In this document: positions 5,006 through 16,918 of the stretch, piece after piece
Numbering within the stretch: position 1 is the first letter of the stretch
Layout of the letters: the number at the start of each line of letters is the position of its first letter
Virus record (IMG/VR): IMGVR_UViG_3300005582_001345
Location: 1 to 21,395 of that record
Length of the DNA: 21,395 nucleotides
Reading direction: 5' to 3' (one strand)
Origin: a virus
Translations under genes and position numbers: made by a program
Notes under the pieces: model-generated
Told to the model about the DNA's origin: nothing
Databases searched by the model: none
What the model saw: only the letters and a program-made list of their open reading frames with translations

Positions 5006-5019
5006 CATAAATATTTATA
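5006..5019. promoter_or_regulatory. Overlapping divergent T4-type late promoters
   Basis: Only 45 bp separate the divergent genes starting at 4976 (minus) and 5022 (plus). The 12-bp palindrome ATAAATATTTAT (5007-5018) sits between them. On the minus strand, bases 5019 to 5012 read TATAAATA, the exact T4 late promoter octamer. On the plus strand, 5006-5013 read CATAAATA, matching the NATAAATA form seen in marine T4-like phages. Minus-strand initiation would give a leader of about 30 nt. Plus-strand initiation would fall at or next to the ATG at 5022, giving a leaderless or nearly leaderless mRNA, or the true start lies elsewhere. Octamer matches are seen directly; promoter function is inferred. 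Confidence 0.7.
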
Positions 5020-5021
5020 CT

Positions 5022-5744
5022 ATGTCACCCGAACACAAAGAAATATTACAAAATTATTGGCAGGAGAATGCTAATATAGAATATCAACAAAAATACCCAG
5101 ACTTTTTCGACCCTAAATGGGTAGTTACCGAGAGTCATTGGCCATGGTTTAGATTAAGTCTGTTTGACAATATGCCATGGAAGGATATGTACAAAGAAGC
5201 TGAACAATTAATGGACGATTTTCATGTACATCGTGATGAATATGGAAGTGGATGGTCAAGTCTTACAATACATGGATTAAATGAAGACACACAAAGTTTA
5301 GAACAATATGGTGATCGTAAAGAGGTATTAGAACAATTAGACTGGACTTGGGTAGCTGACCGTTGCCCCGTGACTAAAAAGTTTTTAACTGATGTATGGC
5401 CAGCTGAATATTTGAATCGTGTTCGTTTTATGCTACTAGAGCCCGGCGGTTATATCTTACCGCATCAAGACAGACCAGACGATCAAAAAAGACTAAGTGT
5501 CTGTAATATATCATTGAACATGCCCGAAGGCTGTGAAATGGTTCTTAAAGGTCACGGCAAAGTGCCGTTTGATGACAACGGTTCTGCTATGTTATTAGAC
5601 ATTAGCAACAAACATGCATACGTAAACAATAGCGACAAGCCCAGACTTCATATGATTATTCACTATGAAATTGGAAATCGTTTACGTGACTTCTTTTATG
5701 TATTACGTTCTAGTTATTATACAAATAGGATGAAAAATGCGTGA
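5022..5744 (+). CDS. Aspartyl/asparaginyl beta-hydroxylase-like 2OG-Fe(II) oxygenase
   Basis: 240 aa from the ATG at 5022. The open frame extends back to 4869, but the earlier part overlaps the divergent radical SAM gene and looks like antisense coding, so the later ATG is preferred. The 2-oxoglutarate/Fe(II) motif is visible: H148-x-D150 (PHQDRP), distal H198 (NKHAYVNN) and R208 (KPRLHMIIH) for 2OG binding, with LSVCNISLNMPEG strands between. GWSSLTIHGL at 77-86 matches the substrate-side part of the aspartyl/asparaginyl beta-hydroxylase (Asp_Arg_Hydrox) family. These enzymes hydroxylate peptidyl or small-molecule C-H bonds. It is the first gene of the plus-strand block, under the bidirectional late promoter, and overlaps the next gene by 8 bp. 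Confidence 0.82.
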   Translation: MSPEHKEILQNYWQENANIEYQQKYPDFFDPKWVVTESHWPWFRLSLFDNMPWKDMYKEAEQLMDDFHVHRDEYGSGWSSLTIHGLNEDTQSLEQYGDRKEVLEQLDWTWVADRCPVTKKFLTDVWPAEYLNRVRFMLLEPGGYILPHQDRPDDQKRLSVCNISLNMPEGCEMVLKGHGKVPFDDNGSAMLLDISNKHAYVNNSDKPRLHMIIHYEIGNRLRDFFYVLRSSYYTNRMKNA

Positions 5745-7218
5745 TTGGAATAGTATAACATATGACCGTTATTTAAGTGATGATAAATTATCAACACCTA
5801 CTGGACATGCAATATTAGATATATCCAGAGATATTCCTAGTGAATTCGTTCGTAAGCGCACTTTTGATATGACATTTTGGATGATTAATCAATGTCTTAA
5901 AATGCGTTTTGGTTCTTACAGGGGCTATAGCGAAAGTGTAAAAGAATTATTAATTAATAGTTTAGAAGGTGGTGATGAGGTATGCATTATACAATGTCAA
6001 GGCATGATGAGCCTACGTTTAGCTCATATTGTTTCACTAAGCACAAAATACTTTAATAACAATCCAGACAAGTTTGTTATGGGGCATATTATGAATAGAA
6101 AGGGTCGCTATCCCGGACTACATAGACAAATGCTTATTGTTAATTTAAAAGTATGGGATAAGTTAGGTAGACCTGAATTTATTGAAAACGCACATTACTG
6201 GGACAGAAGTTTTGTTGGACAGAACTTTACTGTAAGCGAGAATAAGATTGCCGCTGAATATACACCAGAGTACATTACTTCCACAGTGGGCGAGTCTGAA
6301 TATAAAGTAACAGAAGACGGCTCTAATTGGGTTGACATTGCATTAAGGAATAACATCACAATTGACAACTTGAATCTTGAAATGCGTGAGTGCAAATGCT
6401 TTACTTATCCATATGAAGAAACAGATAAGCTAGAGAAAGTTTGGAACAATTTACAAGATGAAGATTTAGTTAATAGTTTCACTAATTACAGTACACGTGC
6501 ATGGGTACGTAAGTTAAGTTATCAAGAGTTTATTGAAAAAGACCGCGTTTATGCATTTAATACAGAAAGATTAAGTGCAGAGGGTATTAGAGTCAATGGA
6601 CCAGTAGATAACGTATTCTGTGCCGCGGCTGGATTTAAACCTGTTGCACTATTAAGAAACAATAGTTTCCATGACAAAACTATAGTTCATTACTTTGACT
6701 GGTGTGAATCTAGTCTAAATTTTAAGAAACATTTGTTAGAAACATGGGATGGATATGATTTAGATAAATGGTTGCTAGAGCATGATTTAAAATATAATTT
6801 TAGTTCGACTTATCGAGGAAACTACGCTGAGTTTTGGAAGTTAGAAGTTGACAAAGAATTTGGCAATAGAGAAGAATTTAAAGAGTTATGGGATAGATAT
6901 CGTAAGCTAGAGCATCATTATCATGTTATTGATATAGTAAATAAACCAGAAAAACTATTTGATTTAATAAATGCATCTACAGGAACTAAGTTGTTATGGA
7001 CTACTAATATATGGGCTAGTATGCAGTTACATTGGGCATTAGAACCTGAGGTATTAGAAGAAAAGTACCTACACTTTGAAAGCCTTGTTCCCGATGATTT
7101 ATCTATGTACGGACAAGATTATATGGCTAGGGATTTAGAGCAACGTATACGTCACAATGTTAGATTAACTCATCCTAGATATAAGACAAAAAACAAATAT
7201 ATAAATTTAAATGTATAG
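5737..7218 (+). CDS. Large protein of unknown function, possible glycosyltransferase-like N-terminus
   Basis: 493 aa; function not recognised with confidence. Residues 82-148 carry CIIQCQGMMSLR, then an FVMGHIMNRKGRYPGLHRQM-type segment and VNLKVWDKLGRPEF. This resembles the acceptor or donor-site region of glycosyltransferase-like proteins in which a hydrophobic strand leads into 'GHI..R...YP.LH.Q'; that reading is tentative. The C-terminal half (from about residue 285) has a possible Rossmann-type beginning (VDNVFCAAAGFKPVALL) followed by VHYFDWCESSLNFKKHLLETW, so a second enzymatic domain is likely. There is no signal peptide or transmembrane helix. Its ATG overlaps the oxygenase stop by 8 bp and has an AGGA Shine-Dalgarno sequence (5727-5730), and its end overlaps the next oxygenase gene by 8 bp. 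Operon membership links it to oxidative tailoring. Confidence 0.7.
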   Translation: MRDWNSITYDRYLSDDKLSTPTGHAILDISRDIPSEFVRKRTFDMTFWMINQCLKMRFGSYRGYSESVKELLINSLEGGDEVCIIQCQGMMSLRLAHIVSLSTKYFNNNPDKFVMGHIMNRKGRYPGLHRQMLIVNLKVWDKLGRPEFIENAHYWDRSFVGQNFTVSENKIAAEYTPEYITSTVGESEYKVTEDGSNWVDIALRNNITIDNLNLEMRECKCFTYPYEETDKLEKVWNNLQDEDLVNSFTNYSTRAWVRKLSYQEFIEKDRVYAFNTERLSAEGIRVNGPVDNVFCAAAGFKPVALLRNNSFHDKTIVHYFDWCESSLNFKKHLLETWDGYDLDKWLLEHDLKYNFSSTYRGNYAEFWKLEVDKEFGNREEFKELWDRYRKLEHHYHVIDIVNKPEKLFDLINASTGTKLLWTTNIWASMQLHWALEPEVLEEKYLHFESLVPDDLSMYGQDYMARDLEQRIRHNVRLTHPRYKTKNKYINLNV

Positions 7219-7876
7219 ATATATCGAAAAGTTTGATCCAATTGATCTAGGGTTTAAAGTAAAGACTTTATTCCCCGTCGATGTGGATAAAATCCGATCT
7301 TGGTATAATGAGTTAGAAACAAAGTACAGTGATTGGAAGTTTATAATTGGAGAAAATCATCATATCTGGCAAGAACCTATAGTTGATCCTTTAGGCATAA
7401 CAGGTCATTATTTGCCAGATGACGTATATTATCATACATTATGTTGGAACGGTGACGAGCCCGGTCCAAAGACTTTTGAACAAGGGTGTGCTAAGCCAGA
7501 GTACAGAGATAATGATGACGACCATCTTAATCCCAGAGAATGCTTTAATGGCTACGCATTAGACTTAGTTAAGAGTTTGCCATTCAGAAGTAAAAAATGG
7601 CTTGTTACTGTGCATACGCCGGGCACTAAATTAATTACACATCAGGACGCTATTGACAAAGTACGTATACATATTCCTATATATACAAACGATGACAGCA
7701 ATTGGATTATAGACGGAGAATCATATCATATGGATGTTGGATATGCTTATCTAGTGAATACTACATTACCACATAGTCTAATAAATAAAGGATCGACCAA
7801 TCGTATACACCTATACGGTAAAGTTTGGACAGAAGACGTTTTAAAGTATTATGGACGATTATTCAGTATTCATTAA
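7211..7876 (+). CDS. 2OG-Fe(II) oxygenase-like protein (asp/asn beta-hydroxylase type), long paralogue
   Basis: 221 aa. The iron and 2OG signature is H144-x-D146 (ITHQDAID), H188 (TTLPHSLIN) and R198 (TNRIHLYGKV), with the strand motif HIPIYTNDDS at 154-163. It is a close paralogue of the next gene: from about residue 130 to 214 the two proteins align without gaps, with shared SYHMDVG/TYHMDVG and VWTEDV/VWTDDV segments. This copy has roughly 40 extra residues (about 52-108) rich in Asp, Pro and Tyr, probably a substrate loop. The start overlaps the preceding stop by 8 bp and has no obvious Shine-Dalgarno, suggesting coupled translation. It probably hydroxylates a peptide or small molecule; substrate unknown. 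Confidence 0.8.
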   Translation: MYRYIEKFDPIDLGFKVKTLFPVDVDKIRSWYNELETKYSDWKFIIGENHHIWQEPIVDPLGITGHYLPDDVYYHTLCWNGDEPGPKTFEQGCAKPEYRDNDDDHLNPRECFNGYALDLVKSLPFRSKKWLVTVHTPGTKLITHQDAIDKVRIHIPIYTNDDSNWIIDGESYHMDVGYAYLVNTTLPHSLINKGSTNRIHLYGKVWTEDVLKYYGRLFSIH

Positions 7877-7907
7877 TAAGTTAGGTGAAAAGAGTTTAGC
7901 TCCTAGA

Positions 7908-8456
7908 ATGTCATATTACGTTGATATATATGACAGAGTTGATGTTGGATTTATCGTACAGAAATACTGTGATATTGATATAGAACAAATAAGAGATTGG
8001 TATCACAAACTAGAAGCACAATTTAGTGATTACAAATACGTGTGCGTTGAGAACGATGATTCAATTCCCTATTCCGGGAGCTTTGGTAAAAATGCCGCAA
8101 TGTACAAACTAACCGATGACATGTTCTTTGATTATGCTAAAGAATTCAGAGACAGTTTGCCCTTCAAGACTGGTAAATGGACTCTAATAATACATGATCC
8201 TACAACTAGATTAGCTACTCATCAAGACCTCGGCGAGGCATTAAGATTGCATGTTCCTATATATACCAACGATGACAGTTTATGGTATATAGAAGGTAGC
8301 ACATATCATATGGATGTTGGTAATGCATATATTGTTAATACTACTATACCGCATGGTTTAAATAACAAAGGAACTACAGATAGAATTCATTTATACTGTA
8401 AAGTTTGGACTGATGACGTTATTAAGTATTACGAATCAAAGAATACTGATCTATAA
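7908..8456 (+). CDS. 2OG-Fe(II) oxygenase-like protein (asp/asn beta-hydroxylase type), short paralogue
   Basis: 182 aa from the ATG at 7908. An in-frame ATG at 7851 would add 19 residues and overlap the previous gene by 26 bp. The later start is preferred because its first 15 residues (MSYYVDIYDRVDVGF) align from the methionine with the paralogue's MYRYIEKFDPIDLGF. Numbered from 7908, H105-x-D107 (ATHQDLGE), H149 (TTIPHGLNN) and R159 (TDRIHLYCKV) form the Fe(II)/2OG site, with HVPIYTNDDS before the second half. It lacks the insertion of about 40 residues present in the upstream copy. The pair looks like a tandem duplication with later divergence. The stop TAA (8454-8456) lies inside the late promoter of the next gene. 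Confidence 0.8.
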   Translation: MSYYVDIYDRVDVGFIVQKYCDIDIEQIRDWYHKLEAQFSDYKYVCVENDDSIPYSGSFGKNAAMYKLTDDMFFDYAKEFRDSLPFKTGKWTLIIHDPTTRLATHQDLGEALRLHVPIYTNDDSLWYIEGSTYHMDVGNAYIVNTTIPHGLNNKGTTDRIHLYCKVWTDDVIKYYESKNTDL

Positions 8457-8459
8457 ATA
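8452..8459 (+). promoter_or_regulatory. T4-type late promoter octamer
   Basis: An exact TATAAATA octamer, 18 bp before the ATG at 8478. It overlaps the TAA stop of the previous gene (8454-8456). A transcript starting a few bases downstream would have a leader of about 12 nt containing the purine-rich AAGAGA just ahead of the ATG. This gives the last plus-strand gene its own late transcription start in addition to read-through from the block. Confidence 0.7.
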
Positions 8460-8477
8460 ATTTGATAAGAGAATAAC

Positions 8478-9068
8478 ATGTCTTTACAAAACGCAATAGT
8501 ACCTTTAGACATTGAGTTTAATCTCAATGAATTACTAGAATACTATAATATATTAGAACGTGATTACCAGCACTTAAAGTGGACCTTTAAAAACGATGTA
8601 GAAGATGCTGACAAAGGTCATAAGCATGATGGGATATTTGGGTGGGGGATACAGAGTAATTTAAATGACTTGAGTAAACCATGTCCACCGTATGACATAC
8701 ACAAAGAACGCACTGATGTATATAGAGATACCGAGTTAGTATTTGGGTTTGCTAAGAAGATTATAGACTACTTCCCGGGAGTGAGACAGTTGGGTATTGC
8801 AGGACATCCACATGGAGTAGAGATATTGCAACACAAAGACAATGATGAATTCTACAAAATACACATCCCCATTATAACTAATGATGAGGCTTACTTTGTA
8901 TTCGGGGATGACAATTATGTGATGAAGCCTGGTAAAATGTACTTTGTAGAGACTGAAATTATGCACGGGACAGTCAATAATGGATTGACACCTAGAGTAC
9001 ATATGTTGTTTAAGTGTACTAGAGACACCATAGACGTTGTTAAAAGAATGACGGGTACGTTAACGTAA
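8478..9068 (+). CDS. Third tandem 2OG-Fe(II) oxygenase-like protein
   Basis: 196 aa. H119-x-D121 (LQHKDNDE), H163 (EIMHGTVNNG) and R173 (TPRVHMLF) give the facial triad and 2OG arginine, and HIPIITNDEA at 129-138 matches the strand motif of the two preceding paralogues. The N-terminal half is His/Asp-rich (GHKHDGIFGWG, near 47-57) and unlike the other copies. It is a more distant member of the same family: the core is shared but the N-terminal substrate region differs. Its own late promoter (8452-8459) and AAGAGA ribosome-binding sequence precede it. The gene ends 2 bp short of a convergent minus-strand gene, with a strong hairpin immediately downstream. Confidence 0.8.
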   Translation: MSLQNAIVPLDIEFNLNELLEYYNILERDYQHLKWTFKNDVEDADKGHKHDGIFGWGIQSNLNDLSKPCPPYDIHKERTDVYRDTELVFGFAKKIIDYFPGVRQLGIAGHPHGVEILQHKDNDEFYKIHIPIITNDEAYFVFGDDNYVMKPGKMYFVETEIMHGTVNNGLTPRVHMLFKCTRDTIDVVKRMTGTLT

Positions 9069-9070
9069 AT

Positions 9071-9676
9071 TCATACTGAAACATTATATCGTGATAATGT
9101 TTCACGCTGTTGCATATATTCATCGACATTAACTTTCCAAACGTTCTGTAGAGTGTTATATATTTCTACATTGGATTGAGCTAAGTGCCATATACCTGTC
9201 TTACTAATATGAGGCATCATTGTTTTATTGATTACATGACTATCTGCACCACCCTCATTGATATTAGTAGTAATATAGAACTCTGCGTCAGGGTTTGTAT
9301 CTTTAATTAATAGTATTTGATAGTATATAAAGTACCCAAAATGAATGAAAGCATGGTATGGATTTTTTGAGAATTGATTATAACCCGGCAATTGTGCTCC
9401 TCTAAACAATACCCTATAGCTATTGTTATTGACTTCTGGAAAATGATGCACACCTGCAATGCTAAAAATACTGTCATTGTCTGTGTCTACTGCTATGAAA
9501 AATTGCCCATAGGGCATCTGCATCTTATCTAATTTTATTGCCTTAAAGTCTTTATTGTTTACAAACCCTAAACTGTCACACCGATCACAGAATACAGATA
9601 ACTTGTCAGTATCTGATTCTTCTAACAGTTTAATTTTAAGGTTTGTTTTTCCATGTATTGAAGTTAGATACATCAT
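9071..9676 (-). CDS. Probable GNAT-like acyltransferase (weak call)
   Basis: 201 aa; function uncertain. The central region FFIAVDTDNDSIFSIAGVHHFPEV (about 59-82), followed by LFRGAQLPGYN (about 89-99), has the look of the beta4-beta5 core of GNAT-type N-acyltransferases. There a strand reporting 'self-information' is followed by an acyl-CoA-facing segment. No canonical Q/RxxGxG/A signature is obvious. Two adjacent ATGs (9676 and 9673) are possible starts; either overlaps the upstream adenylation-like gene by about 40 bp, so a later start cannot be excluded. The last codons fall within the convergent hairpin at 9077-9104. Placed directly after an adenylate-forming enzyme, an acyl-transfer step would make biochemical sense (inference). 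Confidence 0.6.
   Translation of the reverse strand: MMYLTSIHGKTNLKIKLLEESDTDKLSVFCDRCDSLGFVNNKDFKAIKLDKMQMPYGQFFIAVDTDNDSIFSIAGVHHFPEVNNNSYRVLFRGAQLPGYNQFSKNPYHAFIHFGYFIYYQILLIKDTNPDAEFYITTNINEGGADSHVINKTMMPHISKTGIWHLAQSNVEIYNTLQNVWKVNVDEYMQQRETLSRYNVSV
9077..9104. terminator. Perfect 11-bp hairpin at the convergent gene junction
   Basis: The arms TGAAACATTAT (9077-9087) and ATAATGTTTCA (9094-9104) are perfectly complementary around a 6-nt loop. The hairpin lies 8 nt after the plus-strand stop (9068) and inside the last codons of the minus-strand gene (stop at 9071-9073), so it would form in both convergent transcripts. There is no U-tract on either side. A bidirectional transcription barrier or a 3'-end stabiliser is more likely than a textbook intrinsic terminator. 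Confidence 0.6.
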
Positions 9677-10286
9677 CTTTTCTTTTTAGGAAGGTCTGTG
9701 ATTCCATGTCAAACACATCATTAGTAGTGATTCCGTTAACAAAGCACTCGCCCTCGGCAAAGGTAACGTTGTATCCTTTACTATCTGTAAAATCAAAAAC
9801 AGAGCCGTTCTTAGCTATGAATACTGGTGGGGGATTCTCTGTACTACCATACCAATTGGCCACTAACTTAACACCCTTACTCAACATCATATCAACCATT
9901 GATTGCGGTACATTTTGACTGCCCATAATCATATAGCGTACACAACTCATATCTAGAGTTTCAAAATTCTTAGTTTGTTGCAACAGTTCTACATGCTTAG
10001 GTATGAGTCCTATCACAGTAGGCTGATATTTAGTAAACACTTTAATATATGAATATGGGTCAAAGTTCATATTGATTAGTGTGGCGCCTACTTTAGTAGA
10101 AGGTCCAACTGTAATAGTATAGTACCCAATCACATTAAATGGCAATACGTTAAGTACTATATCATCCTTAGTCAATTGCAGTTCCTCGATTGAAATATCA
10201 ATACGATTGTTGATAAACTCCCAAGTATGTTCTACTTCTTTTGCTTCTTTGGTAGAACCTGAAGTATATAATATTAAATTACTCAT
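9636..10286 (-). CDS. Miniature adenylate-forming (ANL/AMP-binding) enzyme
   Basis: 216 aa, with recognisable adenylation core motifs in order: A3 P-loop YTSGSTKEAKEV (7-18), an A4-like PFNVIGYY (49-56), A5 NWYGSTE (144-150), an A7-like TTND (187-190) and an A8-like RKDD (202-205). ANL enzymes activate a carboxylate with ATP to an acyl-AMP and normally are 500-600 aa. Here the P-loop starts at residue 7, so the usual N-terminal segment of about 150 residues is absent. The protein stops just after A8, so the C-terminal subdomain with the A10 lysine is also missing. The motifs are intact and in frame, arguing for a compact enzyme or one half of a complex rather than a pseudogene. It starts 1 bp after the methyltransferase stop and overlaps the GNAT-like gene by about 40 bp. 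Confidence 0.78.
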   Translation of the reverse strand: MSNLILYTSGSTKEAKEVEHTWEFINNRIDISIEELQLTKDDIVLNVLPFNVIGYYTITVGPSTKVGATLINMNFDPYSYIKVFTKYQPTVIGLIPKHVELLQQTKNFETLDMSCVRYMIMGSQNVPQSMVDMMLSKGVKLVANWYGSTENPPPVFIAKNGSVFDFTDSKGYNVTFAEGECFVNGITTNDVFDMESQTFLKRKDDVSNFNTWKNKP

Positions 10287-10287
10287 A

Positions 10288-11142
10288 TCAAAATAGTATC
10301 TTAATTTTTTTATAGCGTTCGAAACATGTCATAAATCCCTCACCCGGGACTACTTCAACTAAGTAGTCTGGTTGTGCTAATTCGGCCGGTATTGCTAAAA
10401 TGTTAGCTACCGTGCTGTCTTCAAATGGGTTTTCATCACTATGTTTAAATGTTTCTGCAATAGGCTTAGTTCTGCAAGCTACCCAATATTGTTTGTATTT
10501 TCTAGCTTCTAAAAACTGTTGGCAGTTATTCCAAACATCCCATTCCATTGCTTCATAAAAGATAACAGGTCTGAATTTGCTGATAGTCTTAACACATCCT
10601 TGTAGTGCTTCAAACTCATGCCCTTCTACGTCAATTTTGATAACGTTACAGTGGGCAAGTTCTACATTATCTAAGGTAAGCATTCTAACAGGAATGCCTT
10701 CGCTACTATTAATGATATGTATATCACCGTAGTTAGATTTCACTTCGGGGTCGAAATCTTTTAAAACACGTTCAGATTTTTTATTACTGGCACCAGCGTT
10801 GATAATTTGAATTTTAGGGTAGTCTTTGCTGTTGTACGATGCTACTGCAAAATGTTTAGGATTGGGTTCAAATCCCAGTGCATTACAGTTTGTTTCTTTA
10901 TGCACCGCTACTAAATGATATCCAACGTTAGTACCTATATCGATATATTGACTAGTATCATCGGGTAAGTATTGCTTAATTATGTTAATTTCTGCTTGGC
11001 AGTATTCACCGTACATGTCAATTGACTTACTTACAGTGTTATCATTTCTATATACCAAAAAGACTCCCACTCTACTATCAGTAAGTAGCAGTGAATCCTT
11101 CATTGAATCGATGGTTTGTTGAATTTCTTCTTCAGTTGACAT
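10288..11142 (-). CDS. FkbM-family SAM-dependent methyltransferase
   Basis: 284 aa. The class I methyltransferase fold is shown by motif I YIDIGTNVGYH (66-76), the acidic ribose-binding residue E92 in GFEPNP, and the FkbM hallmark IKIDVEGHEFEALQG (168-182). The family O-methylates sugars, polyketides and glycans. In phage accessory regions such genes are commonly associated with surface glycan or glycoconjugate modification, which would fit this block (inference). The start has a GAGAG ribosome-binding sequence, with a T-run between it and the ATG. A late-type octamer lies at 11193-11200. The stop at 10288-10290 is followed after 1 bp by the adenylation-like gene, so the two are co-transcribed. 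Confidence 0.9.
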   Translation of the reverse strand: MSTEEEIQQTIDSMKDSLLLTDSRVGVFLVYRNDNTVSKSIDMYGEYCQAEINIIKQYLPDDTSQYIDIGTNVGYHLVAVHKETNCNALGFEPNPKHFAVASYNSKDYPKIQIINAGASNKKSERVLKDFDPEVKSNYGDIHIINSSEGIPVRMLTLDNVELAHCNVIKIDVEGHEFEALQGCVKTISKFRPVIFYEAMEWDVWNNCQQFLEARKYKQYWVACRTKPIAETFKHSDENPFEDSTVANILAIPAELAQPDYLVEVVPGEGFMTCFERYKKIKILF

Positions 11143-16357: not shown

Positions 16358-16918
16358 ATGTATTTAGCATATTATGTCTACGCCTATATAAGAAAAGACG
16401 GCAAACCCTACTACATTGGTAAGGGTAAAGATAGCAGAGCATTTCAATCACATCGTACCAAGAGAGGTGGAGTACATACACCTAAGGATCTACGTAGGAT
16501 TGTTTTTTTAGAGAAAAATCTATCTGAGCTAGGCGCTTTTGCATTAGAAAGACGTTATATCAAATGGTACGGTCGTAAAGACTTGGGTAACGGGATACTT
16601 CACAATATGACAGACGGTGGCGAAGGAGGTACCGGATGTATTAGGTCCGATGAATTTAAATCCAATGCAAGTAAACAACTTACTGGCCGTAAAAAATCAC
16701 CAGAGCACATTGCGAATGTTGTGGCTGCTAGATTAGCTAGTCCTAAGGCTAGAGGATATGTTGCTTGGAATAAAGGGTTGCCTAATATATTGAAGGGCAA
16801 AAAATTAGGGTCAAAACTTAAAACTACTTGCCCACACTGTGAGCTAGAAGGTGGCTCAAATGCAATGAAGAGGTATCATTTTGATAATTGTCGTCATAGA
16901 ATTGGCAACTCATCATAA
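16358..16918 (+). CDS. GIY-YIG homing endonuclease, free-standing
   Basis: 186 aa. GIY-YIG nuclease core: YVY (6-8) in beta-strand 1 and YIG (19-21) in strand 2, R27 as the catalytic arginine, E64 in the [11 protein letters not shown] helix as metal ligand, and N83 in [17 protein letters not shown]-type helix-turn-helix region ([20 protein letters not shown], about 110-129) follows, and then a C-terminal zinc-finger-like CPHC...H...C (C158, C161, H174, C178) for DNA binding. The gene has a strong AAGGGAG ribosome-binding site and is on the strand opposite to all neighbours. Its 3' end overlaps nrdB by 25 bp in convergent orientation. As in T4 (mobE and nrd introns), such enzymes cleave conserved nrd genes of competing phages to spread themselves. 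No intron splice structure is visible here. Confidence 0.9.

Follow-up and report, generated by a model that had tools for sequence, protein, structure and literature searches.

The window, i.e. the entire stretch of DNA analysed here, is a virus record of 21,395 bp that carries nrdA and nrdB as well as genes for a PAAR protein and a cell-wall hydrolase. Inspection of the sequence further points to a GIY-YIG-like homing endonuclease frame beside nrdB, on the opposite strand (16358–16918, +). In locus L002 (contig 3300013285_000579) the NrdA frame (100–1203) opens with what looks like the C-terminal end of an intein (..VYDITVPETECFFANDILVHNC), a hint that the ribonucleotide reductase of this phage contains one.

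On the minus strand of the window, a gene for an FkbM-type methyltransferase is followed by a gene for a 216-residue protein of the ANL type (referred to as mini-ANL) and by a gene for a GNAT-fold partner. For coordinates and sequence motifs see Table 1. The stop codon of the methyltransferase gene is separated from the ATG of mini-ANL by a single nucleotide. Because of this gap and the 41-bp overlap with the downstream gene, there is no space for a missing half of the enzyme on either side. In the window as well as in close relatives, the neighbouring genes directly adjoin the mini-ANL gene or overlap with it at both ends.

Table 1. Genes and sequence motifs at the mini-ANL locus (window positions).
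Feature	Position	Strand	Remarks
FkbM-type methyltransferase	10288..11142	-	Pfam Methyltransf_21 (4.5e-16); counted as a neighbour, not as part of the system
mini-ANL gene	9636..10286	-	216 aa, stop codon 9636–9638; Pfam AMP-binding, AF2 model, VIA
A3 P-loop TSGSTKEAK	10239..10265	-	residues 8–16
Adenine site G122-S123	9918..9923	-	97–100% conserved in both clades
A5 motif NWYGSTENPP	9828..9857	-	residues 144–153; E150 at the metal-binding glutamate position
A7 motif T188-N-D190	9717..9725	-	TGD in relatives; ribose-binding aspartate position
A8 arginine R202	9681..9683	-	14 residues before the protein end
C-terminal TWK	9648..9656	-	clade 1 only; kept in L016 and L047, which lack an overlap with a GNAT start
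GNAT-fold partner	9071..9676	-	201 aa; overlaps the mini-ANL 3' end

The first-pass annotation had described a protein with A3, A5 and A8-like motifs in order, running from the P-loop to just past A8 and devoid of the C-terminal catalytic lysine domain. This description is borne out by the positions of the P-loop, the adenine-site Gly-Ser pair, A5, an A6-like motif (GECFVNG), A7 and A8. The protein starts seven residues ahead of the P-loop, and the ANL N-terminal region, which comprises about 150–190 residues before the P-loop, is missing. The domain with the A10 lysine is absent as well, since the protein ends at residue 216, only 14 residues past A8. The Pfam AMP-binding profile matched mini-ANL above its cut-off (E = 1.2e-17), covering only profile positions 166–330 of 384, and sequence matches in the PDB begin at about residue 140–210 of the full enzymes.

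An AlphaFold (AF2) model of mini-ANL has a pLDDT of 84.4, with low confidence in the last ten residues, TWK included. A VIA comparison with ANL enzymes yielded Z-scores of up to 19.1 (r.m.s.d. 2.9 for 208 residues). The model superimposes on residues 190–438 of BasE, i.e. on its N-terminal domain (Z 18.7, r.m.s.d. 2.4 for 199 residues), so that mini-ANL lacks the initial ~185 residues as well as the entire C-terminal domain, which bears the A10 lysine. The core fold is also like that of EntE, PchD and the 4-coumarate/feruloyl-CoA ligases, which together with BasE align over ~200 residues (Z 17.3–18.8, r.m.s.d. 2.2–3.1) and share the P-loop, A5, A7 and A8 residues with mini-ANL. Unlike mini-ANL, these enzymes possess an additional 150–190 N-terminal residues and a C-terminal A10-lysine domain. 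In BFVD we found a deposited member of the mini-family, the uncultured Caudovirales phage protein A0A6J5L770 (214 aa), which agrees with mini-ANL in length and fold (47% identity, TM 0.88–0.89). It bears only the generic title 'AMP-dependent synthetase/ligase', and no description of a partner or of the truncation was found for it. Mini-ANL is thus homologous to the ANL superfamily, yet lacks defining features of a complete ANL enzyme.

The overlapping downstream gene had been described in the first-pass annotation as GNAT-like, and structure prediction of the two proteins had been proposed as a check; modeled singly, they adopt an ANL fold and a GNAT fold. The AF2 model of the partner (pLDDT 81.5) has PA3270-type GNATs (8gxj, 1yre) as the top-scoring solved fold, with a VIA Z-score of 12.2 over 167 residues at 7% identity. 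A Foldseek search (best E 2.6e-6) returned 79 matches at E ≤ 0.001 and, among the matches listed, all were GNAT proteins. At the sequence level a profile match to 3t9y (E 0.006) was obtained; no Pfam family was found for the window protein and no PHROGs family for the partner, and PF00583 matched weakly in 6 of 42 members of the partner family (best E 0.028). Invariant residues of the family are N40, N41, K48, G75, H77, R88, F91-R92-G93, N138 and Q177. The GNAT CoA motif Q/R-x-x-G-x-G/A in the β4-α3 loop, as judged by inspection of the family alignment (A5), is not conserved in the phage family, a point of difference from the PA3270-type proteins. This site is occupied by FRG[AC]xLP followed by a variable loop, and residues 96–101 of the loop have pLDDT values under 50. 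The unconserved CoA signature fits a non-CoA donor for the partner.

A first scan of viral contigs yielded six relatives of mini-ANL with 58–70% identity, all 212–219 aa long. The genes upstream of these relatives vary (FkbM methyltransferase, SGNH-like proteins and others), yet they adjoin the same mini-ANL start. When the two ANL clades served as queries, 107 and 100 matches were obtained, some of them on shared contigs. The same start and end points are common to 121 distinct full ORFs from the two divergent clades, which are only ~22–26% identical to each other, and the mini-ANL form is therefore not due to chance. Invariant in all 121 are S9, G10, F75, P96, G122, G138, N144, W145, G147, E150, P153, T188, D190 and R202; K16 is 99–100% conserved, and the A10 lysine region is present in none. 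R202 is usually followed by 11–16 residues in clade 1 and by 1–5 in clade 2; since the clades were split by their P-loop string, a few clade-2 sequences fall in the clade-1 counts. An overlap of reading frames with the GNAT gene was rejected as the sole cause of the clade-1 TWK motif, given its persistence in the two loci named in Table 1. The pair T105-K106 (window 10014–10037 at most) is ~88–98% conserved in both clades and is not a known ANL motif; K106 could be a stand-in for the A10 lysine.

With overlap codons excluded, the median dN/dS was 0.126 for the ANL gene (0.063–0.288, 27 close pairs) and 0.117 for the GNAT gene (19 pairs), and no internal stops occurred in 43 aligned genes. Such purifying values mean that both genes are maintained. 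Full-length relatives at this locus, which had been named beforehand as the sign of truncation and decay, were not found: close relatives have 210–225 aa and no spare coding space beside them. The miniaturisation pointed out from the single sequence is thus real and conserved, with the same cut in all 121 sequences. Separate full-length ANL genes are carried in addition by a few phages (L030, L047). In L088 and L092 the ANL protein beside the GNAT is N-terminally longer and C-terminally still truncated. These genes (L088:4949–6001, L092:4907–6001) encode ~350 aa with an intact N-terminal region and no C-terminal domain, lie directly before the GNAT gene and overlap it by 4 bp. Their P-loop is degenerate (LFTDYLTDEPK), and L092 carries a mini copy besides. 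The ~350-aa protein may be an inactive ANL that has been retained as a partner.

The two genes are closely linked. A search seeded with the partner gave 107 loci, of which 80 were kept, and an ANL-like frame was present in 80 of 80. Within the fetched stretches, a GNAT lies beside the ANL gene in 49 of 55 non-redundant clade-1 loci and within ~6 kb in 40 of 55 non-redundant clade-2 loci, some clade-2 pairs being 1–5 kb or more apart. The usual layout is ANL followed by GNAT with an overlap of 11–41 bp. The order is reversed, again with an overlap, in L079 and L083, the two genes are convergent in L016 and they are mostly separated in L047 and L086–L093. No fused ANL-GNAT protein was seen among the loci compared. 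We also searched 20 whole contigs for a GNAT: about 18 without a nearby one, L137 with a distant one and L014 as a known positive. A match was obtained in 11 of the 20, eight of them strong (L137 and L014 included) and three weak. The contigs that still lacked a GNAT were mostly short, with the exceptions of G026 (42 kb) and G027 (155 kb). In L251 (3630–4379) and L263 (3308–4057) a different gene of ~250 aa, oxygenase-like by eye, overlaps the mini-ANL end in the usual place of the GNAT; the L251 copy has no Pfam match. No GNAT was found in the 11-kb contig of L251, and the L263 contig has a weak GNAT match elsewhere.

Tree distances of the ANL and GNAT proteins are correlated (r = 0.72 overall, 0.65 and 0.46 within the clades; 0 of 500 permutations in each case), as common vertical descent and co-inheritance would also lead one to expect. 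The genomic linkage strongly supports a functional connection between the two proteins, and the pair is a conserved system and not a quirk of one gene.

The neighbouring genes were classified by comparing one representative per cluster with Pfam or NCBIfam. Among 51 loci, Asp/Asn-hydroxylase-like genes occur in 42, a Trp halogenase in 26, tail-fibre-type genes with an Mtd_N domain in 25, SGNH-like genes (by eye) in 15 and a twitch-type radical SAM protein in 15. The Asp/Asn β-hydroxylase-like genes form strings, often near tail-fibre genes (window 5019–9068, +), and among them lies a conserved ~495-aa protein without a Pfam match (window 5737–7218). In clade 2 an IMPDH/GMP-reductase-like gene is often located ahead of the ANL gene, e.g. 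directly upstream in L126 (4973–5998, Pfam 1.5e-62), with similar genes in L115, L132 and L158. This neighbourhood suggests that the pair may have a macromolecule-modifying role.

The ANL-GNAT pair was found in none of 50,697 records of isolated phages. Mini-ANL gave only weak matches there (25–29% identity, unannotated or bacterial-looking records), and the window GNAT and the clade-2 ANL had no homologues among these records. A pattern scan of 84,980 species genomes, which was limited by its pattern and to clade 1, returned only full-length Nocardia enzymes (25–28%). In the literature, mainly its openly accessible part, nothing relevant to a phage ANL/GNAT pair or to an ANL core of this type was found.

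Based on these results we propose as the most likely mechanism, at a little short of an even chance, a two-protein acylating system in which an acyl-AMP formed by mini-ANL serves as the donor for acyl transfer by the GNAT-fold protein, a division of labour that the first-pass annotation had put forward as possible. The minimal adenylation core from A3 to A8 would bind ATP and a carboxylic acid to form the acyl-AMP. In ANL enzymes, this segment holds most of the acyl-pocket residues besides the ATP motifs. In full ANL enzymes, thioester formation is driven by the C-terminal domain, which is also where the A10 lysine lies. We infer that the GNAT-fold partner probably docks where the missing ANL parts were and would receive the activated acyl group straight from mini-ANL and pass it on to an acceptor, at an amine or a hydroxyl. 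Candidates for this acceptor are structural proteins of the phage, peptides and surface molecules of the host, a guess based on the neighbouring Mtd_N tail-fibre proteins, Asp/Asn hydroxylases, Trp halogenase and FkbM methyltransferase. The conservation of nucleotide-site residues (99–100%) across such distant clades argues for a retained ATP chemistry. However, ANL enzymes that have been studied adenylate far more poorly once the A10 lysine or the C-terminal domain is removed, and the isolated core could thus work very slowly or not at all. The loss of ~185 N-terminal residues, normally part of the fold, the few ANL loci without an adjacent GNAT and the absence of fused ANL-GNAT proteins from the loci compared also speak against the mechanism. 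Direct attack of an amine on acyl-AMP, with no need for CoA, is known from GH3 enzymes and McbA-type amide synthetases, in which one full-length protein without a GNAT partner performs both steps, whereas the phage pair consists of two proteins. Activated donors other than acyl-CoA are used by the GNAT folds of LuxI and FeeM (acyl-ACP) and of the Fem/Aat enzymes (aminoacyl-tRNA). We know of no GNAT-fold acyltransferase with an acyl-AMP donor from a separate mini-ANL.

An unlikely alternative is that mini-ANL is not an enzyme but an ATP/AMP-binding sensor, a scaffold, or a protein that regulates its GNAT-fold partner or is modified by it. The missing A10 lysine is in line with this, and conservation of a nucleotide site does not by itself prove catalysis. 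Pat-type GNATs acetylate acyl-CoA synthetases, and PatZ and the Pat GNAT domain in complex with the Acs C-terminal domain (4u5y, Z 11.5) are among the VIA matches of the partner. The Z-score of 4u5y is, however, tied with those of many other GNATs, and the lysine modified by Pat enzymes sits in the C-terminal domain, precisely the part that mini-ANL has lost. Moreover, S9, K16 and E150 are highly conserved, and in the ANL enzymes studied so far these residues mainly serve the chemistry of phosphate and metal.

We consider it unlikely that mini-ANL passes its acyl-AMP to CoA, a host enzyme or a carrier protein, with the GNAT-fold protein using acyl-CoA or acyl-ACP in the ordinary way. The fold matches of the partner are CoA-dependent acetyltransferases, and hosts could supply carriers that are missing from the phage contigs. 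Against this stand the unconserved CoA signature and the absence of the thioester-forming C-terminal domain from every mini-ANL. In 20 contigs of up to 356 kb, one match to AMP-binding_C (PF13193) exceeded the cut-off, and it lies in a full-length ANL of 460 aa, separate from the mini-ANL, on the L030 contig; a second, weak match belongs to a 388-aa ANL, and at E ≤ 1 the domain was not found elsewhere in 18 of the 20. A PP-binding carrier protein (PF00550) above the cut-off was found in none of them, the contigs of 147–356 kb included. The usual thioester route therefore has almost no visible phage-encoded parts. Mini-ANL is the sole AMP-binding match in most of these contigs, and with both searches essentially negative we rejected the idea that the missing halves are encoded elsewhere in the phage.

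It seems quite improbable that the two proteins belong to one pathway but act on different substrates without direct hand-over, as other modification enzymes nearby may do. The dense modification genes (hydroxylase-like, Trp halogenase, SGNH-like) and the widely spaced clade-2 pairs would agree with such an arrangement, but the GNAT stays with the ANL gene through order swaps and non-adjacent placement, and the other neighbours do so less. Decay of a full-length ANL, for which the loss of more than half of a normal enzyme and the full-length or longer genes in L030, L047, L088 and L131 could be cited, was in the main rejected on the shared boundaries in both clades, the dN/dS of about 0.13, the intact frames and the abutting genes. 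Hardly more credible is a GNAT-type toxin with mini-ANL as antitoxin: the overlapping two-gene layout and the fold matches TacT3 and AtaT recall such systems, but these toxins do not score above other GNATs, the gene order is reversed in some loci, and the antitoxins known for such toxins are small proteins that bind DNA, whereas mini-ANL, by its sequence, appears to retain an enzyme active site.

Mini-ANL bears on how little of an ANL enzyme suffices, a question to which the same cut from P-loop to A8 in two clades offers a natural answer. That a free-standing adenylation unit of ~215 residues works in cells and that the GNAT-fold protein consumes its acyl-AMP directly, as a CoA-free two-protein acyl ligase, is possible, if doubtful. 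If active, mini-ANL would be the smallest natural adenylate-forming enzyme of the ANL superfamily known to us and a handle for the engineering of amide synthesis, and its partner would be a GNAT fold that uses acyl-AMP. The pair points to a widespread, undescribed phage chemistry, often near tail-fibre genes, in many uncultivated phages.
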